The notes under the pieces are model-generated. The model was not told the origin of the DNA. It was given only the letters and a program-made list of their open reading frames with translations, and ran no database searches. The position numbers were made by a program, and so were the translations under genes. Below, one piece after another: positions 2,802 through 25,808 of a stretch of DNA of 40,192 nt. Source of the stretch: an uncultured Phycisphaeraceae bacterium. GTDB taxonomy: Bacteria > Planctomycetota > Phycisphaerae > Phycisphaerales > UBA1924. The stretch's first letter is position 1; each line of letters starts with the position of its first letter. Location: the NCBI GenBank assembly GCA_937899905.1, contig CALCCF010000067.1, positions 1-40,192 of the forward strand, read 5' to 3'.

Positions 2802-3605
2802 ATGCAAGCATCGCCACATGCCCACTTCGAGACCGCCATGGCAACCGAGGTCGGTCGGCTCCCCGTCGAGGTCCGGGACGTCGCGGGCGAGTTCTGCTCG
2901 AACGGGAAGCGGTTACGCCCGCTCCTGGTCCAGGCGTTCGCGCTCTCGCACGGCGCGACGAGTGACGCGTGGCTCGCCTTCGGCGTTGCCCTCGAGCTCC
3001 TGCACAAGGCCAGCCTGATCCAGGACGATCTGCCCATCATGGACGACGACGAGATGCGCAGCGGCCATCCAGCGGTGCATGCCACGTCTTCCCCCGCCCA
3101 CGCGCTGCTCGCCTCGGACGCGATGATCGGGCACGCTTTCCGCTTAGGTGCCGAGTCCGCGCACCCCGCGGAAGCCGTAACACTTATGAGCGATGCGCTG
3201 GCCGCGCTGTGCGGCGGGCAGCTGAAGGACCTGCACCTGGCAGGCAAAAACACCACCGCCGATTGGACACAGATCGCCGACGAAAAGACGGGCGCACTGT
3301 TCGCGCTGGCCGCCCGGCTCGGCGTGCTCGCCGCGGGTCGCCTCGACGACGAATCACACCAGAACGCCCAGAAGTTCGGCGTATCGCTCGGTCGCCTCTA
3401 CCAGCTGTTCGACGACATCGCCGACGGCGAGAGCAGCGCCCCGATGGCGGCCCTGAACGAGCACCGCGATGCGATCCTGGCGCACGTCCAGCGCACGCCA
3501 CAGCCCGCGGCGCTGCGGCGATACGTCGAGCAGCTCCAGAAGCTCACAGAAAAAGTGCTGAGCGGCAGCGACCCCGCGCCTCCCCCATCACCACCGACTG
3601 GGTGA
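2802..3605 (+). CDS. crtE: Polyprenyl diphosphate synthase, probable GGPP synthase
   Basis: A 267-residue trans-isoprenyl diphosphate synthase. GKRLRP (35-40) binds substrate diphosphate. The first Asp-rich motif is DDLPIMD (75-81, the DDxxxxD form of bacterial short-chain enzymes), followed by GGQLKDL (138-144), and the second Asp-rich motif is DDIAD (204-208). The residues before the first motif read KASLIQ. Ala in the fifth position upstream matches CrtE-type GGPP synthases, whereas FPP synthases usually have Tyr there, so GGPP is the likely product. At 267 residues the protein is a little shorter than usual (about 290). The ATG at 2802 has no clear Shine-Dalgarno but TGGTACACT, an extended -10-like sequence, ends six bases before it. 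A GTG at 2751 in the same frame is an alternative. The product would feed crtB downstream. The product chain length is inference. Confidence 0.85.
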   Translation: MQASPHAHFETAMATEVGRLPVEVRDVAGEFCSNGKRLRPLLVQAFALSHGATSDAWLAFGVALELLHKASLIQDDLPIMDDDEMRSGHPAVHATSSPAHALLASDAMIGHAFRLGAESAHPAEAVTLMSDALAALCGGQLKDLHLAGKNTTADWTQIADEKTGALFALAARLGVLAAGRLDDESHQNAQKFGVSLGRLYQLFDDIADGESSAPMAALNEHRDAILAHVQRTPQPAALRRYVEQLQKLTEKVLSGSDPAPPPSPPTG

Positions 3606-4107
3606 TCGCCGCACACGTCGCGCCAACGCACGATCTCGGGAACATTCAGGGCAAGAAATGCCTTCAAGTCCACGGCTTTGGGAAAAGTGCCCAGCCGATT
3701 GCGATACCGATAGCGTGCAAACCGTGACTCAAGAACAGTTCAGTTGAGAACGCACGGTTCACATCCGCATCCGTAAATGACAACACAGTGTTGGGGAACA
3801 TGGTTGTATAGAACCACGACTATGCCCTAGATCCCCTATCAAAGCACGCGGTGATCCCTCGTAAGGTGATCCGCATCCGCAGTGCGCGGTCTTCGCAATT
3901 GCGCAACTCGAGCCAGCCGTAAGCGCAGGAGGGAATACCGCAAAATCTGCGGGAGAGCCCTCCGCAGCGTTGTGGTGTGCGTTTGCACGGTCGGTAGTAG
4001 AGGTATGCTGGCAATGTCAGTCAGGATCCAACTGTTTTTCGTAGTTGGTCCATGGCCACGCGGCATTACGCGACTCTGCTTCGTTTCCTCATAGGCACTC
4101 CACCGAC
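3606..4107. other. 502-bp gap between crtE and the rhodopsin locus
   Basis: No convincing gene on either strand; the short open frames lack ribosome sites and have no family features. Notable items are a perfect 13-bp palindrome at 3781-3793 and a 6-bp GC hairpin at 3947-3967 (CTGCGG and CCGCAG, 9-nt loop) with no T run. The gap is lower in GC and less codon-like than its flanks, and should hold the promoter for the membrane protein/rhodopsin unit. I could not pick a convincing -35/-10 pair. Confidence 0.4.
3781..3793. promoter_or_regulatory. Perfect palindrome, candidate operator
   Basis: CAACAC-A-GTGTTG is a perfect 6+1+6 dyad about 315 bases upstream of the small membrane protein and 830 bases upstream of the rhodopsin start. 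Its length and symmetry are typical of a binding site for a dimeric regulator, but nothing ties it to a specific factor. Confidence 0.25.
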
Positions 4108-4551
4108 ATGACCGGACAACGCCACATCCTCGGATCAGCCCTCGACGTCTTCGCGGCTGTTCTTGGAGCGGGCGTGTGCGTGATCTGGCTGCTCGTGTTC
4201 CAGGATCGCTTCGTCGATGGTGCAACCTGGAGCGGCCTGAACCCCAACGGTGGCGGCCCGGGCTTCCTGCTCATCCTCTCGGCTGGTTGTCTCGGCTTCT
4301 TCATCCGCTCGAAGACCGCAAAGTCGATGGCCGCGCTGCCGGCGATCCTCCACTCGGCAGTCTTCGCGGCGGTGTGCGGCGTGTGCTTCATGCTCATCGC
4401 CCCGATGGCCGTGACACTGCCCTCAGACATGATCGTTTCAATGGCGTCGGCTGTCACCGGCGCCTTTTTTGTACCCCGAGTCGTGTCGTCTGTACTCAAC
4501 GAAAGTTGGAGTCATGCCCAAGCCGCGAGTGCATACGACGGCGCGGAGTAG
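4108..4551 (+). CDS. Small four-helix membrane protein upstream of rhodopsin
   Basis: A 147-residue integral membrane protein that I do not recognise. Hydrophobic segments lie at about 9-31, 49-67, 79-102 and 107-128. The loop between the first two is rich in Gly and Asn (GLNPNGGGPG) and the tail is polar. The ATG at 4108 is preferred; upstream in-frame starts are non-ATG and lack a hydrophobic start. No good Shine-Dalgarno is seen. It lies 69 bases before the rhodopsin gene on the same strand, so the two may share a transcript. A role in rhodopsin assembly or in ion or energy handling is possible but purely contextual. Confidence 0.6.
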   Translation: MTGQRHILGSALDVFAAVLGAGVCVIWLLVFQDRFVDGATWSGLNPNGGGPGFLLILSAGCLGFFIRSKTAKSMAALPAILHSAVFAAVCGVCFMLIAPMAVTLPSDMIVSMASAVTGAFFVPRVVSSVLNESWSHAQAASAYDGAE

Positions 4552-4620
4552 TTGTTCGCTTCGTAGTTCCTTATTGAAAGGCGGGCCGGAACCACTCCGA
4601 ACCCGAGGAAGGAGCACCCA

Positions 4621-5427
4621 GTGCCGGATCTGAGTTCATTCGAGTTCAATGTGGTGTACAACCTATTGTCGCTGACCGTCGCGACGATGGGTGCCGCCAC
4701 GCTGTTTTTCTTCTTTGCCCCAAGGGTCAATAGGAAGTACAAGGCCGCCATGGTCGTCACGGGACTCGTGACGGCGATCGCCTGTTACCACTACTTCCAG
4801 ATCCGCATCTCGTTCGGCGACGCGTTCGCCCTGAACGAGGCGGGCACCTACGCCGCCACCGGCAAGCCGTTCAACGACTTCTACCGGTACGCCGACTGGC
4901 TGCTGACCGTGCCGCTGCTCATGGTCGAGCTCATCGCCGTCATGGCGCTGACCAAGGCCGAGACGGCCAAGTACCTGCGCATCCTGATTCCCGCCGTTCT
5001 CATCATGATCGTCCTGGGCTACCCGGGAGAGAACGCCATCGCGACCGGCGGCAGCGCCGCCGCGATCTGGGGCTGGTTCGTCGCCAGCATGATCCCCTTC
5101 TGCATCGTTCTCGCCGTGCTGTTCACGCAGCTCAGCGCCGCGATCGAGAAGCAGCCTGCTGAGGCCCGCGGATTGATCAACTTCGCCCGCATTGTGGTCC
5201 TCGTGACCTGGGCGTTCTACCCGCTCGCCTACGTCATCGGTGCCCTCGGCTCCGGCGGTGAGTCCGGCATGAGCACCACCGCGGTAGTCGGCCTCCAGGT
5301 TGGCTACACCATCGCAGACATCACGGCCAAGGCCGGCTTCGGTGTCGTGATCTACCTGATCGCTCGCAAGAAGAGCGAGATCGAGGGCCTCGACGAGGAC
5401 GTCAAGGCCGTCCCGGCTGCCGCCTAA
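4621..5427 (+). CDS. Proton-pumping type microbial rhodopsin (proteorhodopsin/xanthorhodopsin-like)
   Basis: A 268-residue seven-helix retinal protein. The GTG at 4621 follows GAGGAAGGAG with a normal gap. Helix C reads RYADWLLTVPLLMVE: Asp92 (proton acceptor), Thr96 and Glu103 (proton donor) give the DTE motif of outward proton pumps. His57 in YHYF matches the His that pairs with the acceptor in proteorhodopsins. Helix G holds Asp233 and the Schiff-base Lys237 in ADITAKAGFG. Leu100 at the tuning position predicts green absorption. Overall wording (LGYPGE, IPF, LFTQL, LQVGYTIAD) is closest to xanthorhodopsin from memory. At the position of the xanthorhodopsin antenna-binding Gly an ungapped alignment gives Phe153, so a carotenoid antenna seems unlikely. 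Acidic and basic residues end the C-terminus. The retinal genes follow directly. Function as a light-driven proton pump in the inner membrane is strongly supported by motif but not tested. Confidence 0.95.
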   Translation: MPDLSSFEFNVVYNLLSLTVATMGAATLFFFFAPRVNRKYKAAMVVTGLVTAIACYHYFQIRISFGDAFALNEAGTYAATGKPFNDFYRYADWLLTVPLLMVELIAVMALTKAETAKYLRILIPAVLIMIVLGYPGENAIATGGSAAAIWGWFVASMIPFCIVLAVLFTQLSAAIEKQPAEARGLINFARIVVLVTWAFYPLAYVIGALGSGGESGMSTTAVVGLQVGYTIADITAKAGFGVVIYLIARKKSEIEGLDEDVKAVPAAA

Positions 5428-5444
5428 GGCTCCGCAGTCTCCTG

Positions 5445-5474
5445 CGACTCCGTCGACTACCGTCGTCGGAGTCG
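5445..5474 (+). promoter_or_regulatory. Long hairpin between rhodopsin and crtI
   Basis: An 8-bp stem (CGACTCCG with CGGAGTCG), one T-T mismatch, a further 4-bp stem (CGAC with GTCG) and a TACC loop. It begins 17 bases after the rhodopsin stop and is followed by ATTTCC and then the crtI GTG at 5481. The only Shine-Dalgarno-like bases for crtI (CGGAG, 5467-5471) are in the 3' arm. It could act as a partial terminator, an mRNA 3'-end stabiliser for the opsin message, or a gate on crtI translation. Confidence 0.6.
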
Positions 5475-5480
5475 ATTTCC

Positions 5481-7064
5481 GTGCAGTACGCAACGATCCA
5501 ATCCGACCCGCAGCATGTGGCAGGCGCCACGACGACCCCGAACCGTCCTGGCGTGAGCGGTTCGGGTCGCCAAACGGCCGTCGTCATCGGCGCCGGCTTC
5601 GCGGGCATCGCCTCGGCGCTCCGCCTGGCCGCCGCGGGCTGTAAGGTGATGCTCGTCGCCCGGCTGCCCGAGATCGGCGGCCGAGCCCGCACCTTCGAGC
5701 GTGACGGCTTCACCTTCGACGCCGGCCCCACCGTCATCACCGCCCCGTACCTCCTCGACGAGCTCTTCCAGCTCTTCGGCGAATCGATGCACGACCACGT
5801 CGATCTCCGACCGGTCTGGCCCTGGTATCGCGTGCAATGGGAAGACGGCCAGCACTTCGACTACGGCGGCGATCCCGACACCATGTGCCAGCAGATCGCG
5901 CGGTTCAACCGCGACGATCAGGACGGCTATCGCCGGATGCTGGCGAAGGCCGAAGAGATCTACCGCATCGGCTACGAGGGCCTGGGAGACCAGCCCTTCG
6001 ACAAGGCCGGCTCGATGGTGCGGGCCGTGCCCGACATGATCCGCCTGGGCGCCCAGCGCTCGATGTACTCGTTCGTCGCCTCGCACATCAAGAACGAACG
6101 CCTACGCCAGGTCTTCACCTTCCAGCCGCTGCTGGTTGGCGGCAACCCGTTCACGACCTCCTGCATCTACGGCCTCATCCAGCCGCTCGAGCAGAAGTTC
6201 GGCGTCCACTACGCCATGGGCGGCACCACCGCAATCGTCAGGGCCCTCGAAGGGCTGCTCGTCCGCGCCGGTGTCGAGCTGGTGCTCGGCGATGCCGTCT
6301 CTCGGATCGAAACGCGATCCAACCAGATCGCCTCGGTCCACCTCGAGTCCGGCCGACAAGTCAAGGGCGAGCTGTTCCTGTCCGCCGGCGATCCCGTGAC
6401 GCTCTACACCAAGCTGCTTCCGCCGTCCGGTCGGCACATGCGCACCCGGCTGCGTGCCAAGTCGATGAAGCTCTCGATGGGCCTCTTCGTTTCGTACTTC
6501 GGGACCTCGACCGAGTACCCCGACCTCGCGCACCACACGATCCTGCTGAGCGATCGCTACAAGTCGCTGCTCAAGGACATCTTCGACCGCGGCACCGTTC
6601 CCGAGGACCCGAGCCTCTACGTCCACGCCCCGACACGCTCCGACCCCTCGATGGCGCCGCCCGGGCACGAGTGCTTCTACGCCCTGGCGCCCGTCCCAAA
6701 CCTCAAGCTCTACGACGACTGGCAGTCCCGAGCCGATCGGTACCACGACCTCGTGCTCGAACGCATCGAGAACCATCTCGCGCCCGGGCTCCGACAGAAC
6801 CTCGTGACCAAGTTCGCCGTGACTCCCAAGTACTTCGAGACCGAGCTGGAGTCTCCAGCCGGTGCGGGCTTCAGCGTGCAGCCCGTGCTCTCACAGTCGG
6901 CCTACTTCCGCTTCCACAACCGCTGCCCGCACTATCGCAACATGTACCTCGCGGGCGCGGGCACGCACCCCGGGGCAGGCATCCCCGGAACGCTCTGCAC
7001 CGCCAAGACCGCGATGCGGTGCATGGTCCGCGACAACGCCGTGCCCGCGAAGGCCCTGGGATGA
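5481..7064 (+). CDS. crtI: Phytoene desaturase (phytoene to lycopene)
   Basis: A 527-residue FAD-dependent carotenoid desaturase of the CrtI type, which removes hydrogens from phytoene to make lycopene at the membrane. The dinucleotide-binding motif VVIGAGFAG covers residues 34-42, followed by EIGGRA (64-69) and FDAGPTVIT (79-87). The C-terminal CrtI signature YLAGAGTHPGAGIPG is at 489-503. The GTG at 5481 gives an N-terminal extension of about 30 residues before the FAD fold; an in-frame GTG at 5553 would start closer to the conserved region but has no ribosome site. The real start may therefore be either one. First gene of a tightly packed run with crtB, crtY and blh. Length is normal for the family (490-520). 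Confidence 0.95.
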   Translation: MQYATIQSDPQHVAGATTTPNRPGVSGSGRQTAVVIGAGFAGIASALRLAAAGCKVMLVARLPEIGGRARTFERDGFTFDAGPTVITAPYLLDELFQLFGESMHDHVDLRPVWPWYRVQWEDGQHFDYGGDPDTMCQQIARFNRDDQDGYRRMLAKAEEIYRIGYEGLGDQPFDKAGSMVRAVPDMIRLGAQRSMYSFVASHIKNERLRQVFTFQPLLVGGNPFTTSCIYGLIQPLEQKFGVHYAMGGTTAIVRALEGLLVRAGVELVLGDAVSRIETRSNQIASVHLESGRQVKGELFLSAGDPVTLYTKLLPPSGRHMRTRLRAKSMKLSMGLFVSYFGTSTEYPDLAHHTILLSDRYKSLLKDIFDRGTVPEDPSLYVHAPTRSDPSMAPPGHECFYALAPVPNLKLYDDWQSRADRYHDLVLERIENHLAPGLRQNLVTKFAVTPKYFETELESPAGAGFSVQPVLSQSAYFRFHNRCPHYRNMYLAGAGTHPGAGIPGTLCTAKTAMRCMVRDNAVPAKALG

Positions 7065-8026
7065 AGGGGACGAACACCATGAACCACCCCAGCCCCACCG
7101 AGCAGGTCTACGGGAGCGTCGACCCAATCGAGGTGCTGCGCCGCTGCGGCCGCACGTTCTACAGCGCCTCGCTCGTGCTCCCACGCGGCGTACGCCAAGA
7201 CCTGGCGCTGCTGTACGCCCTCTGTCGCGCCATCGCCGACAGCGCCGAAGCGGTAGCCCATGGCGGACCCCACGAGCCCGAGCAGCTCCTCAGCGAAATC
7301 GCCTCGGGCCTCCGCGGAGCGCACTCAAGGTCGCCCGTCGTGAACGCGTTCAGGTCGCTCGCCGACAAGTACGACATCCCCCTCGTGCTCCCGCAGCAGT
7401 TGATCGAGGGCGTCCGCTGCGACCTCGGCACCGTGCGCATCCAAACCGAGGACGAGCTGCTGCGGTATGCCTACCGCGTCGCTTCGACCGTCGGCCTCAT
7501 GATGTGCCGAATCCTGGGCGTGGATCCGCAAGGCGACTCGTTCGCGGTCGACCTGGGCATCGCGATGCAGCTGACGAACATCGCCAGAGACGTCGCCGAA
7601 GACGCGCTGACCGATCGCGTGTACGTCCCGGCCGATTGGGTGGATGCCGATCGGGTCATCTCGACTGTGCGAGACACGCGAGCCGGCGCGTATTCCGCGG
7701 ACGTCGGCCTCGCGGTACAGAAGCTCCTCGAAACCGCGGATACCTATTACGAGAGCGCCGAGCTCGGCATGCACTTCCTCCCGATCGCGGTCCGCGGCGG
7801 CATCCGCTCCGCGGCATGGAACTACCGCGCCATTGGTGGTGCTGTGCAACGCGATCACGAACGGGCCTTACGGCAGCGATCGAGGACCACGGGCACGGGC
7901 AAGGCCTTCCGCACCGTGGCCGCGCTCTGGGCATCGTCCCTCGAATCGCTCCCGCTGGGACCATCCGACGTCCACGACGAGTCCCTCCACGGCGCCGTGC
8001 GTGCGCTGCGGGTCGCCTCGACATGA
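7061..8026 (+). CDS. crtB: Phytoene synthase with an altered first Asp motif
   Basis: A 321-residue squalene/phytoene synthase family enzyme that condenses two GGPP to phytoene. The second Asp motif is intact: QLTNIARDVAED (170-181) with VYVP downstream. The first motif, normally CRxxDDxxD, reads CRAIADSAE here (55-63). The first Asp is Ala and the last is Glu, so Mg-diphosphate binding on this side would rest on Asp60 and Glu63. The ATG at 7061 overlaps the crtI stop as ATGA, with GAAGG seven bases before it. The ATG at 7079 has its own AGGGGA and is an equally good start. The gene lies between crtI and crtY, which strongly supports a phytoene synthase role despite the altered motif. Confidence 0.88.
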   Translation: MKGTNTMNHPSPTEQVYGSVDPIEVLRRCGRTFYSASLVLPRGVRQDLALLYALCRAIADSAEAVAHGGPHEPEQLLSEIASGLRGAHSRSPVVNAFRSLADKYDIPLVLPQQLIEGVRCDLGTVRIQTEDELLRYAYRVASTVGLMMCRILGVDPQGDSFAVDLGIAMQLTNIARDVAEDALTDRVYVPADWVDADRVISTVRDTRAGAYSADVGLAVQKLLETADTYYESAELGMHFLPIAVRGGIRSAAWNYRAIGGAVQRDHERALRQRSRTTGTGKAFRTVAALWASSLESLPLGPSDVHDESLHGAVRALRVAST

Positions 8027-9201
8027 ACCGGCTCCAGCCCGGCAGCCGAGTCGCCATCGCGGGCGGCGGGTGCGCGGGCTGCGCCCTCGCGTGCGAGATC
8101 CTGGCTCGATGCCCGGGTGTACACGTGACCGTCTTTGAGCCGTCATCAAGCCTGACATCGGACCGGACCTGGTGCTTCTGGGATGTGCGGCCCCACCGCT
8201 TCGCCGACGCGATCCACAAGCGCTGGGATCGAGTGCTGGTCCGATCGGCCGACACCGAGGTCGAGGTGGACGCCTCGTCGTACCCCTACTCGTGCATACG
8301 GGCGGAAGACTTCTTCCGAGCAGCCCGGGAGCAGATGTCGTCCGAGTCTTGCTCGATCCGCCTTGGCACATCGGTCGAGGAGATCAACGATCGAGAGGAC
8401 CACGTCGACGTGTTGCTCCGTTCGGGGGCCAGTGACTCCACCGAGCGATTCACGCACGTCTTCGACGGGCGCCCGCCCGCTCGATCCGCCCAGCGGTCCA
8501 GCGAACCGATGCTCCTGCAACACTTCGGTGGCATCGAGATCGTCAGCTCCACGACCCCAGTCGATCCCAGCGTCGCGACGCTCATGGACTTCAGCGTGTC
8601 GCAGCAGCACGGCGCACACTTCATGTACGTCCTGCCGTTCCAGTCCGATCGCGTGCTCGTTGAATCGACGTACCTGACCACGGGTATCTCAGAGGACATC
8701 GACTACGAGTCGAGTGCCACCGCGTACGCCAGCGATGTATTGGGCATCGACCCCTCGCGCGTGGTCTATCGCGAATCGGGCGTCCTGCCCATGACCCTTC
8801 GTCCGCTCGGCCCTCGTTCAACACCACGCGTCTGGTCGATCGGCACTCGCGCGGGTGTCGGCCGGGCGAGCAGTGGCTACGCGTTCGACGCCATCCAGCA
8901 CGACTCGGCTCGGCTGGTCGATGCCCTGCTTCGGGGCCAACCGCGACCGCGCCCGCCGCGCTCGTCAATCCTGAGCATGCTCGACCGCGTCCTGCTGTCC
9001 CTGTTGGACACGCACAATGCCGCCGCGCCCGACTTGTTCGCAAGGCTGTTCCAGAGCGCAGAGACCGACAAGCTCGTCAGATTCCTCGGCGATGTTCCGC
9101 GACCGCTGGACTACCTCGCCGTAATGTGGGCTATGCCCAAGGCCCAGGTCATCCGCCACGTCCTCACGAACCCGTCGGCCTGGCCGCGACCCATCGGATG
9201 A
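8023..9201 (+). CDS. crtY: Lycopene beta-cyclase, CrtY type
   Basis: A 392-residue flavoprotein cyclase that converts lycopene to beta-carotene. The N-terminal dinucleotide motif is VAIAGGGCAGCALA (10-23). CrtY family signatures follow in order: RTWCFW (48-53), a LLQHFGGIEI segment matching the QxFxGxxV motif, LMDFSVSQ, the FMYVLPF...VLVEST block, GVLPMT and a GVGRASSGYAF block near the end of the flavin fold. The start ATG overlaps the crtB stop by four bases (ATGA), so translation is probably coupled. The size is typical for proteobacterial and Bacteroidetes CrtY (about 380-400). With blh directly downstream, beta-carotene is most likely an intermediate toward retinal. Confidence 0.93.
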   Translation: MNRLQPGSRVAIAGGGCAGCALACEILARCPGVHVTVFEPSSSLTSDRTWCFWDVRPHRFADAIHKRWDRVLVRSADTEVEVDASSYPYSCIRAEDFFRAAREQMSSESCSIRLGTSVEEINDREDHVDVLLRSGASDSTERFTHVFDGRPPARSAQRSSEPMLLQHFGGIEIVSSTTPVDPSVATLMDFSVSQQHGAHFMYVLPFQSDRVLVESTYLTTGISEDIDYESSATAYASDVLGIDPSRVVYRESGVLPMTLRPLGPRSTPRVWSIGTRAGVGRASSGYAFDAIQHDSARLVDALLRGQPRPRPPRSSILSMLDRVLLSLLDTHNAAAPDLFARLFQSAETDKLVRFLGDVPRPLDYLAVMWAMPKAQVIRHVLTNPSAWPRPIG

Positions 9202-10169
9202 ACGCCCAACCCGCAGCACCGGCTCCGACCAACACCGGCTCCGTCCTCGCCGGCTACACATGGTCGATCAGCGTTGCAACGGTCCTCGCGGGGGCTCTCG
9301 TCCTCACGCTTGGCGCTCCATCCCCGCTTGCGTCGGCGATCATCATGGTGACCGCGGTCGCGCTGATCGGGCTCCCACACGGCGCGTACGACCTCGAGGT
9401 CGCACGGCGCCTCTTCGCAGGGCGCCTCGGGAAAGCGTGGTGGCTGCTCTTCGGCGGCGCGTATCTCGCGTTGGCTGCCCTTGGCCTCGGGCTCTGGCTC
9501 GCACTTCCCTGGGTCGCACTCACCATGCTCCTCGTTGGCGGCGCGATTCACTGGGGGCTCGATGACCTTGAGTGCGACAACCTTGGACGACCACGCAGGA
9601 CGTGGCTCGCCCTCAGCCGTGGCGCGATCCCCGTCGCCAGCCCGATGGCGTTCCACGCCGAGACGGTCTCGACGATCTTCGCCGCCATCCTCGGAGCCGA
9701 AGCGGTCGACGCGTCGCACGTGCAGATCGCCGGTTTCGCGTGGCTGCTCGCCGCCTGTCCCGGCATCGTCGCGTCCGTACTCTGGGCGCGAAGCCACTCG
9801 ACCGCGTCGAGGCTCCGTGTGCTCGTCGAACCCATCGTGCTGCTCGGCTGGTTCTTCGTCGCTCCGCCGATACTCGCCTTCACGCTGTACTTCTGCTTCT
9901 GGCACTCGGTGCGCCACTCGCTCCGCTCGGCCATGGCTGCCTCGCCCAACACCTCCGTGGGTTCGGCGATCCTCGAGTACCTCAAGGCCTCGGCCTTGCC
10001 GACCGTGCTCACGTGGGTTCTCGCACTCGCGGCCGTTCTTGCCTGGTCCGGCTTTGGCGATGCTGTCCAGGTAAGCTGGAGCATCGTGTTCATCGGCCTG
10101 TTCGCGCTCACCATCCCGCATGTCACTCTGGAGTGGTTCGAGGCTCGGGAGCACTCCACCCCGACATGA
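9198..10169 (+). CDS. blh: Beta-carotene 15,15'-dioxygenase (retinal-forming), Brp/Blh family
   Basis: A 323-residue, strongly hydrophobic membrane enzyme that cleaves beta-carotene to two retinal molecules. The conserved iron-binding His set of the Blh family is visible: PHG at 60-62 (GLPHGAYDL), His118 in AIHWGLDD, the HSVRH pair at 236-240, and His308 in TIPHVTLE. Seven or eight hydrophobic stretches separate them. The start ATG overlaps the crtY stop by four bases. This is the last gene of the run, and it is the step that turns a carotenoid operon into a chromophore supply for the rhodopsin at 4621. No obvious terminator follows in the 142 bases before the next gene. Confidence 0.94.
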   Translation: MNAQPAAPAPTNTGSVLAGYTWSISVATVLAGALVLTLGAPSPLASAIIMVTAVALIGLPHGAYDLEVARRLFAGRLGKAWWLLFGGAYLALAALGLGLWLALPWVALTMLLVGGAIHWGLDDLECDNLGRPRRTWLALSRGAIPVASPMAFHAETVSTIFAAILGAEAVDASHVQIAGFAWLLAACPGIVASVLWARSHSTASRLRVLVEPIVLLGWFFVAPPILAFTLYFCFWHSVRHSLRSAMAASPNTSVGSAILEYLKASALPTVLTWVLALAAVLAWSGFGDAVQVSWSIVFIGLFALTIPHVTLEWFEAREHSTPT

Positions 10170-10311: not shown

Positions 10312-11289
10312 ATGAGCCCGTACACCCAACGAGCCCGAAGCCTCGTCCTGGACCCGCTGGTCCGGCCGCTGTCGGGCACGTACGACCTGCTCTACTCGCT
10401 GCGGAACCTGCGTCGGCTCGAGATCTTGGTGATGATCGCCGCGTGCGCGAGTTTTCTCATCAACATCGCCCTCATCTTCGCAGCCCGTCGCTTCGCCGAC
10501 ATGGACCTGCCCGTCCTACGGATTGTCAATACAAACTACTTCAGCGCCATCTACACGCCCTTCAGCTTCATCCTCTTCTACGAGGTGCTGATGCTCGTGG
10601 TGGCGCTGCCGCGTTCGCTCTCGGTCGCCATCGCTAAGCAGTACGAGATCATCTCGCTCATCGTGGTGCGTGGCGTCTTCAAGGACATCGGCGAGCTCGA
10701 AGCCGCCGAGCAGGTGGCCGACCAGGTCAAGGACGTGCTGATCCTTGCTGCCGATATGGTTGCCGCGCTCGCCATGTTCGCGTTGGTTGCCGTCTTCTAC
10801 CGCCTGCGCACTCGAAGCCCGCTGAGGCTCGATCCAAACGTGGTCGAATCGTTTGTCTCGTTCAAGAAGGCCGTCGCCGTTGCTCTCAGCGTGATCTTCG
10901 TGATCATCGCGAGCGTGAGCCTCGCGGGCTGGCTGTACAGCGTGGTCGAGAGCTCGGCCGCCGGCCGGGTGAAGGGCCTGGATACCGACCTGATCTTCTT
11001 TCCCACGTTCTTCGAGATCCTGATCTTCAGCGACGTACTAATCCTGATCGTCTCGTTCTCCATCACCGACGGGTACAAGTACGTGTTCCGCAACGCGGGC
11101 TTCGTCATCTCAACGATCCTTCTACGCATCTCGCTGACCTCGCCGAAGCCCTACGACCTGCTTGCCGCCCTGAGCGCGATGTGCTTTGGGATCGCGGTCC
11201 TGGCGATCTTCAATACATACGCCAAGCTTGGAGTCGACCCCGGTGAGAATGTCGAGCCAGCAGGCTCCGACGAACGCGTGGGAACGTAG
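10312..11289 (+). CDS. Polytopic membrane protein of unknown function
   Basis: A 325-residue membrane protein. Hydrophobic segments lie near 37-57, 78-99, 143-163, 187-207, 229-250, 262-273 and 284-302, and Arg/Lys-rich loops suggest the N-terminus is cytoplasmic. A helical amphipathic part (EAAEQVADQVK, 130-140) links the second and third segments. GAGGG precedes the ATG at normal distance. I recognise no family. It lies 142 bases after blh on the same strand, so read-through from the retinal operon is possible, but nothing in the sequence ties it to light use. Confidence 0.7.
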   Translation: MSPYTQRARSLVLDPLVRPLSGTYDLLYSLRNLRRLEILVMIAACASFLINIALIFAARRFADMDLPVLRIVNTNYFSAIYTPFSFILFYEVLMLVVALPRSLSVAIAKQYEIISLIVVRGVFKDIGELEAAEQVADQVKDVLILAADMVAALAMFALVAVFYRLRTRSPLRLDPNVVESFVSFKKAVAVALSVIFVIIASVSLAGWLYSVVESSAAGRVKGLDTDLIFFPTFFEILIFSDVLILIVSFSITDGYKYVFRNAGFVISTILLRISLTSPKPYDLLAALSAMCFGIAVLAIFNTYAKLGVDPGENVEPAGSDERVGT

Positions 11290-12302: not shown

Positions 12303-13514
12303 TCAGCTCGTCGCCCACTTGATCAGCACGTCGGCAACCTCCGAGCGCGTGAACTCGCCGGGGGGACGCTCGCCCTTGGCCAGCATCTCGCGGACCTTGG
12401 TGCCGCTGAGGAACACCTGGTCGCCGTCGATCTTGGGGAACGTCTTGCCGCTGACCATGCCCTGGGCCTTGTGGCTCCATGCGGCGTGCTCAAACTTCAG
12501 CGGCGTGATCTTCAGGTCGCCCTCGGCGCCCGTCGTCACCTCGTCGACGAGCGTCTGCGCGTCGTACGTGCCGTAGTAGCTGCCCACGCCGGCGTGATCG
12601 CGGCCGACGATGAAGTGCGAGCAGCCGTAGTTCTGGCGGACGATCGCGTGCAGGATGGCCTCACGCGGGCCGGCGTACCGCATGGCGGCGGGCATGACCG
12701 TCACCATCGTGCGCTCGGTGTTGAAGTAGTTGTCGACCAGCACCTCGTAGCAGTCCATGCGCACGTCGGCGGGGATATCGCCGGGCTTGGTCTCACCCAC
12801 CAGCGGGTGGATGAGCAGGCCGTCGGTGATCTCCTGGGCACACTTGCACAGGTACTCGTGAGCACGGTGGATGGGGTTGCGCGTCTGGAACGCGCTGACC
12901 GTGCTCCAGCCCTTGGCCGCAAACGCCTCGCGCGTCTGCGCCGGGGTCAGCCGCTTGTCCAGGAACGCCTCGGGGCCATCGGGATCGACGCACACCGTGA
13001 CGACCTCGATCGGGCCGGCCAGGCACGTGTCACCCTCGGCCTTCACGGCCTCGGCGCCGGGGTGCTGCCCATCGTCGTCACCCGCGCTGTTGAAGAAGAT
13101 GGTCGACTCGGCGTCGCGATCGTGCGCGAAGACCTCCTCGACGGTCATGACGGCCTGCAACTGGCCATTGGGCGCGTACAGCGCCACGCGGCTGCCTTGC
13201 GCCGGGGCCGAAGCGCCATCAACGCTCAGCGTGATCGGGATGGGCCAGCGGCTGCCGTTCGAGAGACGCATGTCCTCGATGACGCCCTTGACGTCGGCCG
13301 AGCCCATGAAGCCCGTGAGCGGGCTGAACGCTCCCGTGCCGATCATCTCGACGTCGCACGACTGCTTCAGCGAGAGGTCGATGCGGGGCAGGCCCGCGGC
13401 CTCGGCGATCAGCTCGTCGCGGCGGGCGCCGGTGGCCACCTGGTCCACCAGGGTGCCGCCGTGCGGCTCGATTAGGCCCTTGGTTGCGGTCGGTTCTGCC
13501 GTCATCGTCGCCAT
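12303..13514 (-). CDS. sat: Sulfate adenylyltransferase (ATP sulfurylase)
   Basis: A 403-residue ATP sulfurylase that makes adenosine 5'-phosphosulfate from ATP and sulfate. The catalytic motif QTRNPIHRAH is at 210-219 and GRDHAG at 304-309, matching the single-subunit Sat type and not the CysD/CysN heterodimer. The N-terminal PUA-like domain (residues about 10-165) precedes it. The ATG at 13514 is chosen because AGGAGG lies five bases before it; the open frame runs 39 codons further upstream without a ribosome site. No kinase domain is fused, but cysC lies 1.5 kb away on the other strand. Assimilation, or PAPS for sulfated surface sugars, are both possible uses. Confidence 0.95.
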   Translation of the reverse strand: MATMTAEPTATKGLIEPHGGTLVDQVATGARRDELIAEAAGLPRIDLSLKQSCDVEMIGTGAFSPLTGFMGSADVKGVIEDMRLSNGSRWPIPITLSVDGASAPAQGSRVALYAPNGQLQAVMTVEEVFAHDRDAESTIFFNSAGDDDGQHPGAEAVKAEGDTCLAGPIEVVTVCVDPDGPEAFLDKRLTPAQTREAFAAKGWSTVSAFQTRNPIHRAHEYLCKCAQEITDGLLIHPLVGETKPGDIPADVRMDCYEVLVDNYFNTERTMVTVMPAAMRYAGPREAILHAIVRQNYGCSHFIVGRDHAGVGSYYGTYDAQTLVDEVTTGAEGDLKITPLKFEHAAWSHKAQGMVSGKTFPKIDGDQVFLSGTKVREMLAKGERPPGEFTRSEVADVLIKWATS

Positions 13515-13595
13515 CGCATCCTCCTCTACCCGGGGCCGCCACCGAAGACGCTCGGGGGGCTCAGCCGGGGGAAGCGAGATGTTATGGACAAACTC

Positions 13596-13614
13596 GATTG
13601 GGGGCAACCCAATC
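13596..13614 (-). terminator. Weak hairpin between the glycosyltransferase and sat
   Basis: GATTGGG and CCCAATC form a 7-bp perfect stem with a 5-nt loop, 54 bases after the glycosyltransferase stop on the minus strand. The tail (GAGTTTG) is a poor T run, so termination here would be partial at best. Confidence 0.3.
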
Positions 13615-13667
13615 AGGGGTTTCAGCGGCATTCCCAGGGGCTTTTGGGCCGGTTTCGACGCCCAAAC

Positions 13668-19028: not shown

Positions 19029-20345
19029 TCAGCAGCCCGCGCTGAACAGATTCTGAAACTCGAGAAAATCGAAGAGATCCAAGGACCCGTCCCCCGTGAG
19101 ATCGGCTTTCGGGTCGCCGTCATCGAACGCGGTTTGGAACGCGAGGAAGTCGAAGATCGTCAACGCGCCATCGCCATCAAGATCTGCCGGACAGACCGGT
19201 TCAAGACCGACCGCCGCCTGAGCATTGACCAATCCGTGCCCGAAGTCGAAATCGAACCCCGGCTCCCCCAGATCGATCGCGGTATCGATCAGCCGCTGGC
19301 GGACCTCGTCGTTGATCCGGCCGTTGCCATTGGAGTCTTCGATGCCCGCCCCGATAATCAGGGCCGCCACGCCCGCCACGTGCGGGCTGGCCATCGATGT
19401 CCCACTGAAGACGTCAAAGGTGGTATCCGAGGCCCCGGAGGTCGAGAGAATGTCAACGCCTGGCGCGACAAGCTCGAGCCCGGCGCCGCCCTGCGAGAAG
19501 CGGGCCTTCTGATCGAATTCGTCGGTCGCGCCAACCGCCATCACGCTGCCGTACTTCGCCGGCGATTCGAGCGGCCGGCCGAACAGGTTGCCCGAAGCCG
19601 CGATGTGGATGATGCCCGCATCGAACGTGTTGTCGTACGCCTGCTCCATGAGTGGGATGTCACCAAAGAACAGGATGCTGTTGTTCGTGACCTGGATGCC
19701 GTTGTCCGCCGCGTACTGCAATGCACCGATGACAGCCGACGCCACGGGAATCGTCGTCCCAACCTTGAGTGCATGGAGCTCGGCGTTGGGCGCCACACCG
19801 ATGATGTCTGAACCATTGGCTACCGCGACGATCGTGCCGCTTACGTGGGTGCCGTGGCCAATCGGATCGGACGTATCGGGGATGCCCTCCTCGAAGTTGA
19901 AGCCGAACACATAGTTGTCAGCGAGCTCCACGTGTGTTGCGCGTGCCCCCGAGTCAAGCACGCCCACCGCAACCCCACCGCCACGCTGGCCGCCGATGTG
20001 TACCGGCTCGCAGTTGATGCGGCGGATACCCCAGACCTGGTCATATTCGGAGGCCCACACACCTGGAGCGTTCGGGCCGACGCCCACCACGCGGCCGTTC
20101 GTCGCAGCCAGTCCGTCCGCGACGTCCACCGGCATGGTCGCGTGCATCCCGGGAACAACTGTCCAAACTTCATGTACCACACCGCCCAGCGACTCGATCA
20201 TCGCGACATCGGCCGCTGTCGGTTGCGACGCGAACTCGATCAGCACCTCGGCCGGCACTACGAGTTCGTCATTCGCCATGGCCCCGCCGACGGTGCCGAG
20301 AAGAGATGCGATAGGCATGGCTGCGCGACGGAAACTGGGAGGCAT
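19029..20345 (-). CDS. Subtilisin-like S8 serine protease with GC-type dockerin tail
   Basis: A 438-residue exported protease. An N-terminal signal segment (about 1-24, cleavage near AMA-ND) is followed by an inhibitor I9-like propeptide (VLIEFASQPTAADVAMIESLGG). The catalytic triad is Asp131 (VGVLDSG), His164 (HGTHVSG) and Ser317 (GTSMASPHVAG), with oxyanion Asn253 (AASGN). The C-terminal tail has Cys385, two DLDGDG/DLTGDG calcium-loop-like repeats and terminal AGC. It is a tandem paralogue of the next gene (same length and architecture). Expected to act in the periplasm or at the cell surface; the substrate is unknown. The ATG at 20345 is followed by Arg residues typical of a signal peptide. 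Confidence 0.92.
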   Translation of the reverse strand: MPPSFRRAAMPIASLLGTVGGAMANDELVVPAEVLIEFASQPTAADVAMIESLGGVVHEVWTVVPGMHATMPVDVADGLAATNGRVVGVGPNAPGVWASEYDQVWGIRRINCEPVHIGGQRGGGVAVGVLDSGARATHVELADNYVFGFNFEEGIPDTSDPIGHGTHVSGTIVAVANGSDIIGVAPNAELHALKVGTTIPVASAVIGALQYAADNGIQVTNNSILFFGDIPLMEQAYDNTFDAGIIHIAASGNLFGRPLESPAKYGSVMAVGATDEFDQKARFSQGGAGLELVAPGVDILSTSGASDTTFDVFSGTSMASPHVAGVAALIIGAGIEDSNGNGRINDEVRQRLIDTAIDLGEPGFDFDFGHGLVNAQAAVGLEPVCPADLDGDGALTIFDFLAFQTAFDDGDPKADLTGDGSLDLFDFLEFQNLFSAGC

Positions 20346-20674: not shown

Positions 20675-21991
20675 TCAGCAACCCGCGACGAACAGGTTCT
20701 GGAACTCGAGGAAGTCGAAGATGTCCAGCACGCCATCGCCAGTCAGGTCGGCAGCCAGATCACCGGCGCCGAACGCGGTCTGGAACGCCAGGAAGTCAAA
20801 GATCGTCAGCTCACCATCGCCGTCGAAATCGGCCGTGCACGAAGGCTCGAGCCCGAGTGCTGCCTCGGCGTTCACTAGGCCGTGACCGAAGCTGGTGTCA
20901 AAGCCCGGGCTACCCAGATCGATCGCCGTATCGATCATCCGCTGGCGGACCTCATCGTTGACGCGGCCGTTGCCGTTCGTGTCCTCAATCCCCGCCGCGA
21001 TCACCAATGCCGCCACGCCGGCCGCATGCGGGCTAGCCATCGACGTGCCGCTGAAGAAGTCGTACGACCGATCCGAGTTGCTGGTGGTCGAATACACATC
21101 AACGCCCGGCGCGACCAGCTCGAGGTCTGGACCACCCTGCGAGAAGCTAGCACGGCGATCACGATCATCGGTCGCACCAACGGCGATCACGCTGTCGTAC
21201 CGAGCCGGGATGCCGACCGATCCGCCGCCGCCGTTGCCCGACGCGGCGAAGTGGATGATGCCCGCATCCCACGTGTTGTCGTACGCCTGCTGCAATAGGG
21301 ACGAGCTGCCCAGCGAGAAGCTGCTGTTCGTGACCTGGATACCATTGTCCAGCGACCACTGCAGCGCGTTGATCGTGCCCGAGGATGTCGGGAAGAACGT
21401 GCCGATCTTCAGCATGTACAGATCTGCCTCGGGCGCGACGCCGATGATGTCATCACCGTTCGCAACCGCGGCAACAGTGCCGCTCACGTGCGTGCCGTGG
21501 CTGAATGGATCGCTGAAGTCCGAGCTTCCGGTCTCGAAGTCGAAGCCGAACACGAAGTTGTCGAAGATGTCCTCGTGCGTGTGGCGAAGACCGGAGTCCA
21601 TCACACCGACGGCCACGCCCGTTCCGCGCTGGCCGGCCGCGTGAGTCGGCTCGCAGTTGATACGCCGCACGCCCCACACCTGGTCATACTCGGTGGTCCA
21701 CTGGCCGCGAAGGTTGGGCTCAACGCCGACAACGCGGCCGTTAATCGCGGCGAGCTGCGCATCCATGCCATCGGGCAGGCTCGCATGCATCCCCGGCACC
21801 ACCGTCCAGACCTGGTGCACCTCCCCTCCCAGGGCCTCGATCATGGCCACGTCGGCGGGCGTGGGGTTCGTCTGGAACTCGATCAGCACGTCATCCATCG
21901 GCGAGATGCCCTCATTGCCCAGGGCGACGCCCGTAGCAAGACCGGAGACCGCGATCAGAGCCGCACCGGCGGAAAGCTGCTTCAAGACCAT
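20675..21991 (-). CDS. Subtilisin-like S8 serine protease with GC-type dockerin tail (paralogue)
   Basis: A 438-residue exported protease, paralogous along its whole length to the gene at 19029-20345. Signal peptide at about 1-25 (cleavage near ALG-NE), I9-like propeptide (VLIEFQTNPTPADVAMIEALGG), triad Asp132 (VGVMDSG), His165 (HGTHVSG) and Ser317 (GTSMASPHAAG), oxyanion Asn253. The tail has SC-TADFDGDGELTIFDFLAFQ, then DLTGDGVLDIFDFLEFQ and terminal AGC. The insert around residues 253-262 is glycine-rich (GNGGGGSVG) where the paralogue has GNLFGRPLE, so the two may differ in substrate choice. A local tandem duplication is the simplest origin. It is divergent from the EF-G-like gene. Confidence 0.92.
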   Translation of the reverse strand: MVLKQLSAGAALIAVSGLATGVALGNEGISPMDDVLIEFQTNPTPADVAMIEALGGEVHQVWTVVPGMHASLPDGMDAQLAAINGRVVGVEPNLRGQWTTEYDQVWGVRRINCEPTHAAGQRGTGVAVGVMDSGLRHTHEDIFDNFVFGFDFETGSSDFSDPFSHGTHVSGTVAAVANGDDIIGVAPEADLYMLKIGTFFPTSSGTINALQWSLDNGIQVTNSSFSLGSSSLLQQAYDNTWDAGIIHFAASGNGGGGSVGIPARYDSVIAVGATDDRDRRASFSQGGPDLELVAPGVDVYSTTSNSDRSYDFFSGTSMASPHAAGVAALVIAAGIEDTNGNGRVNDEVRQRMIDTAIDLGSPGFDTSFGHGLVNAEAALGLEPSCTADFDGDGELTIFDFLAFQTAFGAGDLAADLTGDGVLDIFDFLEFQNLFVAGC

Positions 21992-25172: not shown

Positions 25173-25461
25173 TACGAACTCCACTCCAGCACCCTGCGCT
25201 GCCTACACCGATTTTCAAAACGAGCAGAGCCTTGCCACTGACTACCCAAGAGATTTGAGGCGATGGCACAGGTGATTATCGATTCAGAGTCGGTTCATGC
25301 CGCAGAGGCAACGGCAAGTACAAGCCATGTCGCACCTGGGCGAAACTCCCAACACAAGGCTATTCCAAGAACGCAACGAGCACATTCAAGCGAGAAATGC
25401 CGGCCTGCATCTGTACGCTGCCTATGGCGAACGCACCTCAGGTCCGGTCTTGAGAGATGAG

Positions 25462-25808
25462 TGGAGCCGGGGGGAATCGAACCCCCGTGCCGGATCGGCA
25501 GCCATGGCGCCTCTACGCGTGTAGTCGACGGTTTGATCTCGGCCTGTGCACGGGCGCCGACACCCTTGCCTTCGGCCCAGCCACCGGTGAACCTCCTCGC
25601 CTGCGCGCCCGGGAGCACCGCGCACCGACCAGCCCGATGTCGTCGTCCCCTCCCCCATCGGGCGTCAGGGAGGGGACGGGCTACGTCAAGCAGCCAGAGC
25701 GTACTGCGGTTCGGCAGTTGTTGATTTTGTGTGCCGGTTACGAGAAGAGCACACCTCTCGACGCGCCACACCATGCCTCACACGTCCGGTCGAATCCATA
25801 TCGGCCCC
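25462..25808 (-). ncRNA. ssrA: tmRNA (transfer-messenger RNA)
   Basis: A 347-nt one-piece tmRNA. The 5' end starts GGGGCCGATATGGATTCGAC, the classic tmRNA opening, and its first seven bases pair with CGGCTCC at the 3' end (one G-U pair) to form the acceptor stem. The T arm is GGGGG-TTCGATT-CCCCC. CCA is not encoded (the genome reads CTC after the discriminator A). The tag frame at 25715-25686 reads AEPQYALAA followed by TGA; the ALAA end is the usual protease signal. A longer in-frame reading without stops exists upstream, but the GCC at 25715 is the likely resume codon by analogy with the nine-residue planctomycete tags. It rescues stalled ribosomes and marks the nascent chains for breakdown. 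Confidence 0.95.

Follow-up and report, generated by a model that had tools for sequence, protein, structure and literature searches.

A retinal synthesis module with a putative light-driven pump in a Phycisphaerales bacterium, and its chromosomal interval beside sulfate adenylyltransferase

Does a planctomycete of the order Phycisphaerales carry, at a single chromosomal locus, the genes to make retinal and to use it in a light-driven pump, and how did such a locus come to lie there? The question is raised by positions 2802-10169 of a stretch of 40,192 nucleotides (CALCCF010000067.1, assembly GCA_937899905.1), hereafter the window, which is the entire contig C67 of a source genome of 3.63 Mb in 113 contigs (95.07% complete, 0.31% contaminated). 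We consider it quite likely that the locus is a chromosomal photoheterotrophy module of a Phycisphaerales bacterium, with self-made retinal and a putative proton pump of the xanthorhodopsin (XR) clade, and that it was gained or exchanged horizontally. CrtE, CrtB, CrtI and CrtY would successively make beta-carotene, which Blh would cleave to retinal. Retinal would bind Lys237 of the opsin. Once expressed and illuminated with green light, the opsin would pump protons outward, with Asp92 as acceptor and Glu103 as donor. Horizontal gain or exchange is suggested because, within one genus, an interval beside the sulfate adenylyltransferase (SAT) gene is empty, bears the module or holds a different rhodopsin together with blh. 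Rhodopsin photoheterotrophy would then be a movable trait within Phycisphaerales.

All six genes named by an earlier, sequence-only reading of this DNA (crtE, opsin, crtI, crtB, crtY and blh) are present on the plus strand within 2802-10169. The crtE-like gene for a polyprenyl (geranylgeranyl diphosphate, GGPP) synthase (2802..3605; PF00348, 1.1e-37; 77.9% amino acid identity to the congener G013) encodes both Asp-rich motifs, DDxxxxD at residue 75 and DDxxD at residue 204; GGPP is the presumed chain length of its product, all NCBIfam matches being under their cut-offs. After a gap of 502 bp follows hyp1 (4108..4551), which encodes an unnamed hydrophobic protein of 147 amino acids with about four membrane stretches by hydropathy and lies directly upstream of the gene for the xanthorhodopsin-type opsin (4621..5427; PF01036, 1.7e-36). 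Next come crtI of the phytoene desaturase family (5481..7064; TIGR02734, 556.5 bits against a cut-off of 238.1), the phytoene synthase gene crtB (7061..8026; PF00494, 1.9e-57; an alternative start at 7079 is possible), the lycopene cyclase gene crtY (8023..9201; PF05834, 1.5e-54; under the TIGR01790 cut-off) and blh for beta-carotene 15,15'-dioxygenase (9126..10169; PF15461, 7e-51; TIGR03753, 182.5 bits against a cut-off of 95.25). The row ends with hyp2 (10312..11289), encoding an unnamed, rhodopsin-associated membrane protein of 325 amino acids outside the Pfam and NCBIfam families. All these genes lie on one strand, and hyp1 and hyp2 are module members additional to those listed before. Overlaps join crtB to crtY and crtY to blh, and also crtI to crtB if crtB starts at 7061.

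The same order is found in G013. By a simple Nei-Gojobori count between the window and this congener (locus L025), the ratio of nonsynonymous to synonymous substitutions (dN/dS) of all eight genes, hyp1 and hyp2 included, ranges from 0.074 (crtI) to 0.246 (hyp2); as all eight values are low, we take them for real genes under purifying selection. The order in G221, a member of the same family, is instead hyp1-XR-crtI-crtB-crtY-blh-crtE. Identity between the window and G221 is 40% for crtY, 43% for blh and 36% for crtE, against 77% for XR and 69% for crtI. With crtY, blh and crtE diverging faster in this way, xenology of single genes is a conceivable reading.

What kind of rhodopsin does the module encode? 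The source genome has a single PF01036 match, and the DTE motif ascribed to it earlier is borne out by D92, T96 and E103 together with the Schiff-base lysine K237; H57, the histidine near the counterion, and L100 are also present. Its best match among PDB sequences is xanthorhodopsin 3ddl (3.1e-62; 47.9% identity), with proteorhodopsins at about 1e-20. The DTE motif, His57 and the Schiff-base lysine are common to the window opsin and to xanthorhodopsin 3DDL, Gloeobacter rhodopsin 6NWD and Kin4B8 7YTB, at 47-49% identity. An AlphaFold2 model from a 31-row alignment (predicted local distance difference test score, pLDDT, 86.7) aligns in VIA-align with Z scores of 32.1 to 6nwd, 31.9 to 7ytb and 29.2 to 3DDL; other rhodopsins score Z 28-30 too, and the fold by itself does not assign the protein to the XR clade. 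The phylogeny does place it there. In a tree of 42 selected rows (in the opsin alignment and the tree alike, duplicates and the partial opsins L001, L020, L022, L025-L029 and L107 are excluded and L005 and L006 trimmed at the first stop), the window, G013 and G221 form a single clade (100/100), and proteorhodopsin rows separate at 100/99. Its sister group is formed by the Planctomycetia XRs (94/83), a position that may shift with wider sampling since the non-planctomycete rows are five PDB chains and L093. By match and tree, the opsin is assigned to the XR clade as a xanthorhodopsin-like rhodopsin. From proteorhodopsin we take Asp92 to be counterion and acceptor, Glu103 the donor and Leu100 the green/blue tuning site, and the opsin is most likely an outward proton pump driven by green light.

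Two further opsins in these data deserve mention. In G296 (L027 / L068, CP030884.1), a genome assigned to the class of the window, the XR falls inside the Pirellulaceae XRs (97/93) and the genes stand in the Planctomycetia order, which suggests transfer or else a question of taxonomy. L093, from a contig titled Acidobacteria, has an XR 58.8% identical to that of the window; like Planctomycetia, it has its genes in the order XR-blh-crtY.

Judged by relatives and flanks, the host of the module is a Phycisphaerales bacterium, as had been proposed. G221, deposited as 'Phycisphaerales bacterium isolate IP29b_bin.111' (JANQNW010000010.1), carries the module with an opsin 77% identical. The right flank of the window, with genes for sulfate adenylyltransferase, a glycosyltransferase, adenosine 5'-phosphosulfate (APS) kinase and GltX, is syntenic in the genus members G032 and G003. 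Of the two features on which the sequence-only reading had based its host assignment, the GC-type dockerin tail is borne out by a match to NF041540 at 39-968; the transfer-messenger RNA at 25461-25808 (minus strand) has no part in the host evidence.

The position of the module on the chromosome speaks to its origin. The SAT gene (12303..13631, minus strand; PF01747, 2.7e-90) is the right-hand anchor of the rhodopsin interval and is found in 6 of 6 genomes searched in the genus and family. In G003 (L137), a genus member without a rhodopsin match, a 356-amino-acid open reading frame (ORF), an AAA gene, SAT, the glycosyltransferase gene, the APS kinase gene and gltX are consecutive. In G013 the XR module, from crtE to hyp2, stands between the AAA gene and SAT, and homology to the empty site stops at position 8113 of L137 and restarts at 8206. 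In G032 the AAA gene is missing from the interval, which is occupied by a rhodopsin gene and blh, both on the minus strand; this rhodopsin is 32% identical to that of the window, and its nearest PDB matches are 4hyj and green proteorhodopsins. The pair is flanked by two direct copies of the 3'-terminal 224 bp of SAT, 96.9% identical to each other (L028 8111-8334 and 10969-11192), a pattern expected after single-crossover integration or after a local duplication. In the window and G013, a comparison of the left and right sides of the XR module gave no long direct repeat; the SAT repeat is confined to G032. The insertion points of G013 and G032 share an interval and differ in their bases. The right side of the interval in the window is as in G013, G032 and G003. 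On the left, 2.75 kb are different, and the source genome has its AAA homologue close to a contig end elsewhere (C65:1640-2737). The rhodopsin of G258 has a place away from SAT, and a rhodopsin match is lacking in G046. Two occupants and one empty site are the basis for the view that the interval accepts alternative light pumps. Empty, module-bearing and alternative-pump sites within one genus make gain, loss and exchange of a pump comparable between close relatives.

Is the module the first of its kind? It is not, and the earlier statement that such a locus is little described in this class was too strong. PF01036 matches occur in 23 of 397 genomes of the class (22 above the cut-off). Opsins more than 50% identical to that of the window are restricted in this sample to the source genome, G000, and to G013, G221 and G296, the others being 23-33% identical. 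One profile search of genome contigs, based on a four-row alignment, gave 65 named XR loci, namely L030 (= G221) and 64 others, all titled planctomycetes except L093 (an Acidobacteria metagenome-assembled genome, MAG). Blh is encoded in the locus in 60 of these 64 and all six genes in 34, every one in the order XR-blh-crtY-crtE-crtI-crtB; clusters of this build are recurrent across Planctomycetota. Those of Planctomycetia (e.g. Rubripirellula obstinata CECT 8602, NZ_LWSK01000083.1) have an XR-clade opsin about 50-55% identical to that of the window and the same retinal pathway enzymes, and many of these genomes have hyp2, though none was found in that of the cultured R. obstinata; their gene order differs, their blh and crtY are merely about 22-34% identical, and hyp1 was not detected in them. 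In the literature, a 2019 report describes five green-light rhodopsins from MAGs of freshwater planctomycetes, including one from Phycisphaerae (PMC6461901). This and other Phycisphaerae rhodopsins belong to the same class as the window and often adjoin blh. Planctomycete rhodopsin sequences are mentioned for Lake Baikal (PMC8071047), and 32 MAGs with proteo- or xanthorhodopsin operons in a 2026 mat study (PMC13043013). For three deep-sea and three surface isolates, no rhodopsin is reported (PMC11588811). Within the open-licence literature, no paper on a Phycisphaerae XR module was found by title or beginning of the abstract. The system is of a known kind that is thinly described for the host class, and the window holds a distinct variant at an informative insertion site. 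New here are the gene order, hyp1 and hyp2, the shared insertion interval and, probably, Phe153 at the antenna glycine.

What, then, are the two unnamed companions of the opsin? Both lack names by which literature could be searched, and prior publication is possible. Hyp1 has no match in Pfam or NCBIfam at a threshold of 0.001. It occurs in 3 of 100 genomes of the family (G000, G013 and G221), 60 of which lay outside the rhodopsin sample; it is adjacent to the opsin in all three, which are the carriers of the window-type opsin. Hyp2 has about 6-7 hydrophobic stretches over its 325 amino acids, and no Pfam family matches it even at an E value of 10, nor does any NCBIfam family. The window and Planctomycetia proteins are about 40% identical and share long invariant motifs. 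An AlphaFold2 model from 14 rows (pLDDT 57.9) was too weak for a fold; Foldseek against PDB gave no match at E <=0.001, and a hyp2 profile gave one match only among PDB sequences (E 1.7). The hyp2 alignment leaves out L045 (31 amino acids), two loci with broken frames (L056 and L099) and duplicates.

Hyp2 occurs in 6 of 397 class genomes (G000, G013, G221, G182, G068 and G296; the G068 copy contains two in-frame TGA codons), all among the 23 that are rhodopsin-positive. With genomes treated as independent, the hypergeometric probability of this co-occurrence is 1.9e-8, and 1.1e-4 without the family of the window. In a phylum sample, which has G000, G013 and G182 in common with the class sample, 5 of 392 genomes have hyp2 and 4 of these are among the 18 rhodopsin-positive ones; the fifth, G625, has a weak partial match and no rhodopsin match. 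Among XR-positive named genomes, hyp2 was found in 21 of 50 (3 fragments and 18 copies of nearly full length, of which 3 have one in-frame stop); with 13 that have it in the locus and G221, the total is 35 of 64, L094 being outside the test. In 15 of the 64 named loci it is at most 8 kb away from the opsin, before or after it and in either direction (L045 has just a short remnant), and in G765 and G775 it shares a contig with crtB and adjoins it. When 67 loci were clustered blind, hyp2, with 16 loci, was the commonest family after the opsin, the crt genes and their shadow frames. With recurrent clusters judged to be shadow frames of crt genes set aside, it is the sole recurrent family other than crt and opsin genes that has a homologue in the window. 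G182 and G068 combine hyp2 with other types of rhodopsin, DTE proteorhodopsin-like and NDQ, respectively. Hyp2 is an unnamed, strongly conserved family whose presence nearly predicts rhodopsin in the sampled planctomycetes. As a separate observation, an HTH_17-like regulator, just under its cut-off, stands beside planctomycete XR clusters in 11 loci (e.g. L039:6912-7826) and is not among the clusters of the window.

That hyp2 is an ordinary planctomycete gene near the module by chance was rejected, since a common gene would be expected in more than 6 of 397 class genomes. A rival reading holds that the association reflects common habitat and co-transfer alone, hyp2 having an unrelated function, and we give it an even chance. 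Hyp2 is missing from 17 of the 23 rhodopsin-positive class genomes, which weighs against a tight partnership, and from 29 of the 50 XR-positive named genomes; in G221 a distance of 32 kb separates it from the opsin, in G182, G068 and G529 the two are on different contigs, and G625 has a distant relative without a rhodopsin match. The rival has more difficulty with the six out of six class genomes, improbable by the figures above if genomes are independent, and with the linkage in 15 named loci on either side and in either orientation. Tentatively, and with somewhat less confidence, we propose that hyp2 represents a new family of membrane partners of various rhodopsin types and that pumps are swapped as cassettes at one interval in the genus. 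If this is true, hyp2 might act, for instance, in the delivery of retinal or carotenoid, in opsin assembly or in coupling of the light-driven gradient.

Some observations count against the picture of a functional, antenna-free module. With about 500 bp between crtE and hyp1, crtE may be transcribed separately. Phytoene synthesis may be impaired in the window strain, or the first Asp-rich motif of CrtB, ADSAE, may be an assembly error of the MAG. Finally, MAFFT pairs Gly151 of the window opsin with Gly156 of 3DDL by way of a two-residue insertion within helix E.

The CrtB motif qualifies the description of the module as complete: crtE, crtB, crtI, crtY and blh do stand at a single locus with the opsin, and the CrtE motifs and the nucleotide-binding motifs of CrtI and CrtY are present, but the first motif of CrtB departs from DDxxD. 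In G013 it reads DDSAD; among 15 relatives shown, DDxxD is found in 12, G013 being one of them, and DN in L031 and L069; L037 has a gap at this place. A decaying module, in which this active-site change halts phytoene and leaves the opsin idle or fed by outside retinal or carotenoid, would agree with ADSAE in the only non-Hpn phytoene synthase found and with the patchy distribution in genus and family. The remaining two PF00494 matches of the genome form a pair on C16 beside a partial CrtI-family match and are read as HpnC/D/E of a hopanoid/squalene route; on that reading the module crtB is the sole candidate phytoene synthase. We nevertheless regard decay as rather unlikely, as every frame is open and under purifying selection against G013, with a dN/dS of 0.143 for crtB, and the second CrtB motif, DVAED, is intact. 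Outside the module, two more CrtI-family genes above the cut-off (C18:6084-7577 and C94:11231-12766) perhaps belong to another carotenoid route.

There remains the question of an antenna. The source genome has no match to the hydroxylase family PF04116, which we take to be that of CrtZ, as against 2 of 14 controls with a match; ketolases and other hydroxylases were not searched. In the XR type, binding of a carotenoid antenna depends on Gly156 (3DDL) or Gly153 (Kin4B8), according to PMC13093654. Xanthorhodopsin 3DDL, Gloeobacter rhodopsin 6NWD and Kin4B8 have this pocket-defining glycine in helix E, whereas the window opsin probably has Phe. The antenna region of the trio of window, G013 and G221 reads IWGWFVASMIPF. 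If residues are counted without gaps from the IPF conserved in helix E, Trp155 is matched by Trp152 and Gly156 by Phe153, an alignment that requires one additional residue in the loop before the helix. Helix E is unbroken at 146-175 in the AlphaFold2 model, and for this reason Phe153 is favoured at the antenna position. That the opsin is an antenna-bearing xanthorhodopsin like the Salinibacter and Kin4B8 proteins, using a carotenoid made by the same pathway, is quite unlikely: its XR-clade membership, the MAFFT pairing of Gly151 and the Gly in this column in 61 of 64 other named loci (Phe in L031, L079 and L081) would agree with it, but that pairing requires the two-residue insertion within helix E, the ungapped count puts Phe153 on Gly156, and no PF04116 match was found. 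With Phe153 probably in place of the antenna-pocket Gly, the opsin probably functions without a carotenoid antenna.

Some minor observations may be added. Elsewhere in the window, 19029-20345 and 20675-21991 encode neighbouring paralogues that look protease-like by eye and share the repeat-like C-terminal tail of 39-968. Rhodopsins with the NDQ motif, which we assume to be of the sodium-pump type, occur in planctomycetes at L019, L021 and L113; those of L019 and L021 adjoin crtY and blh. The rhodopsins of L012 and L112 have a DTK motif, and that of L024, whose genome G149 has two rhodopsins, has N-D-S.

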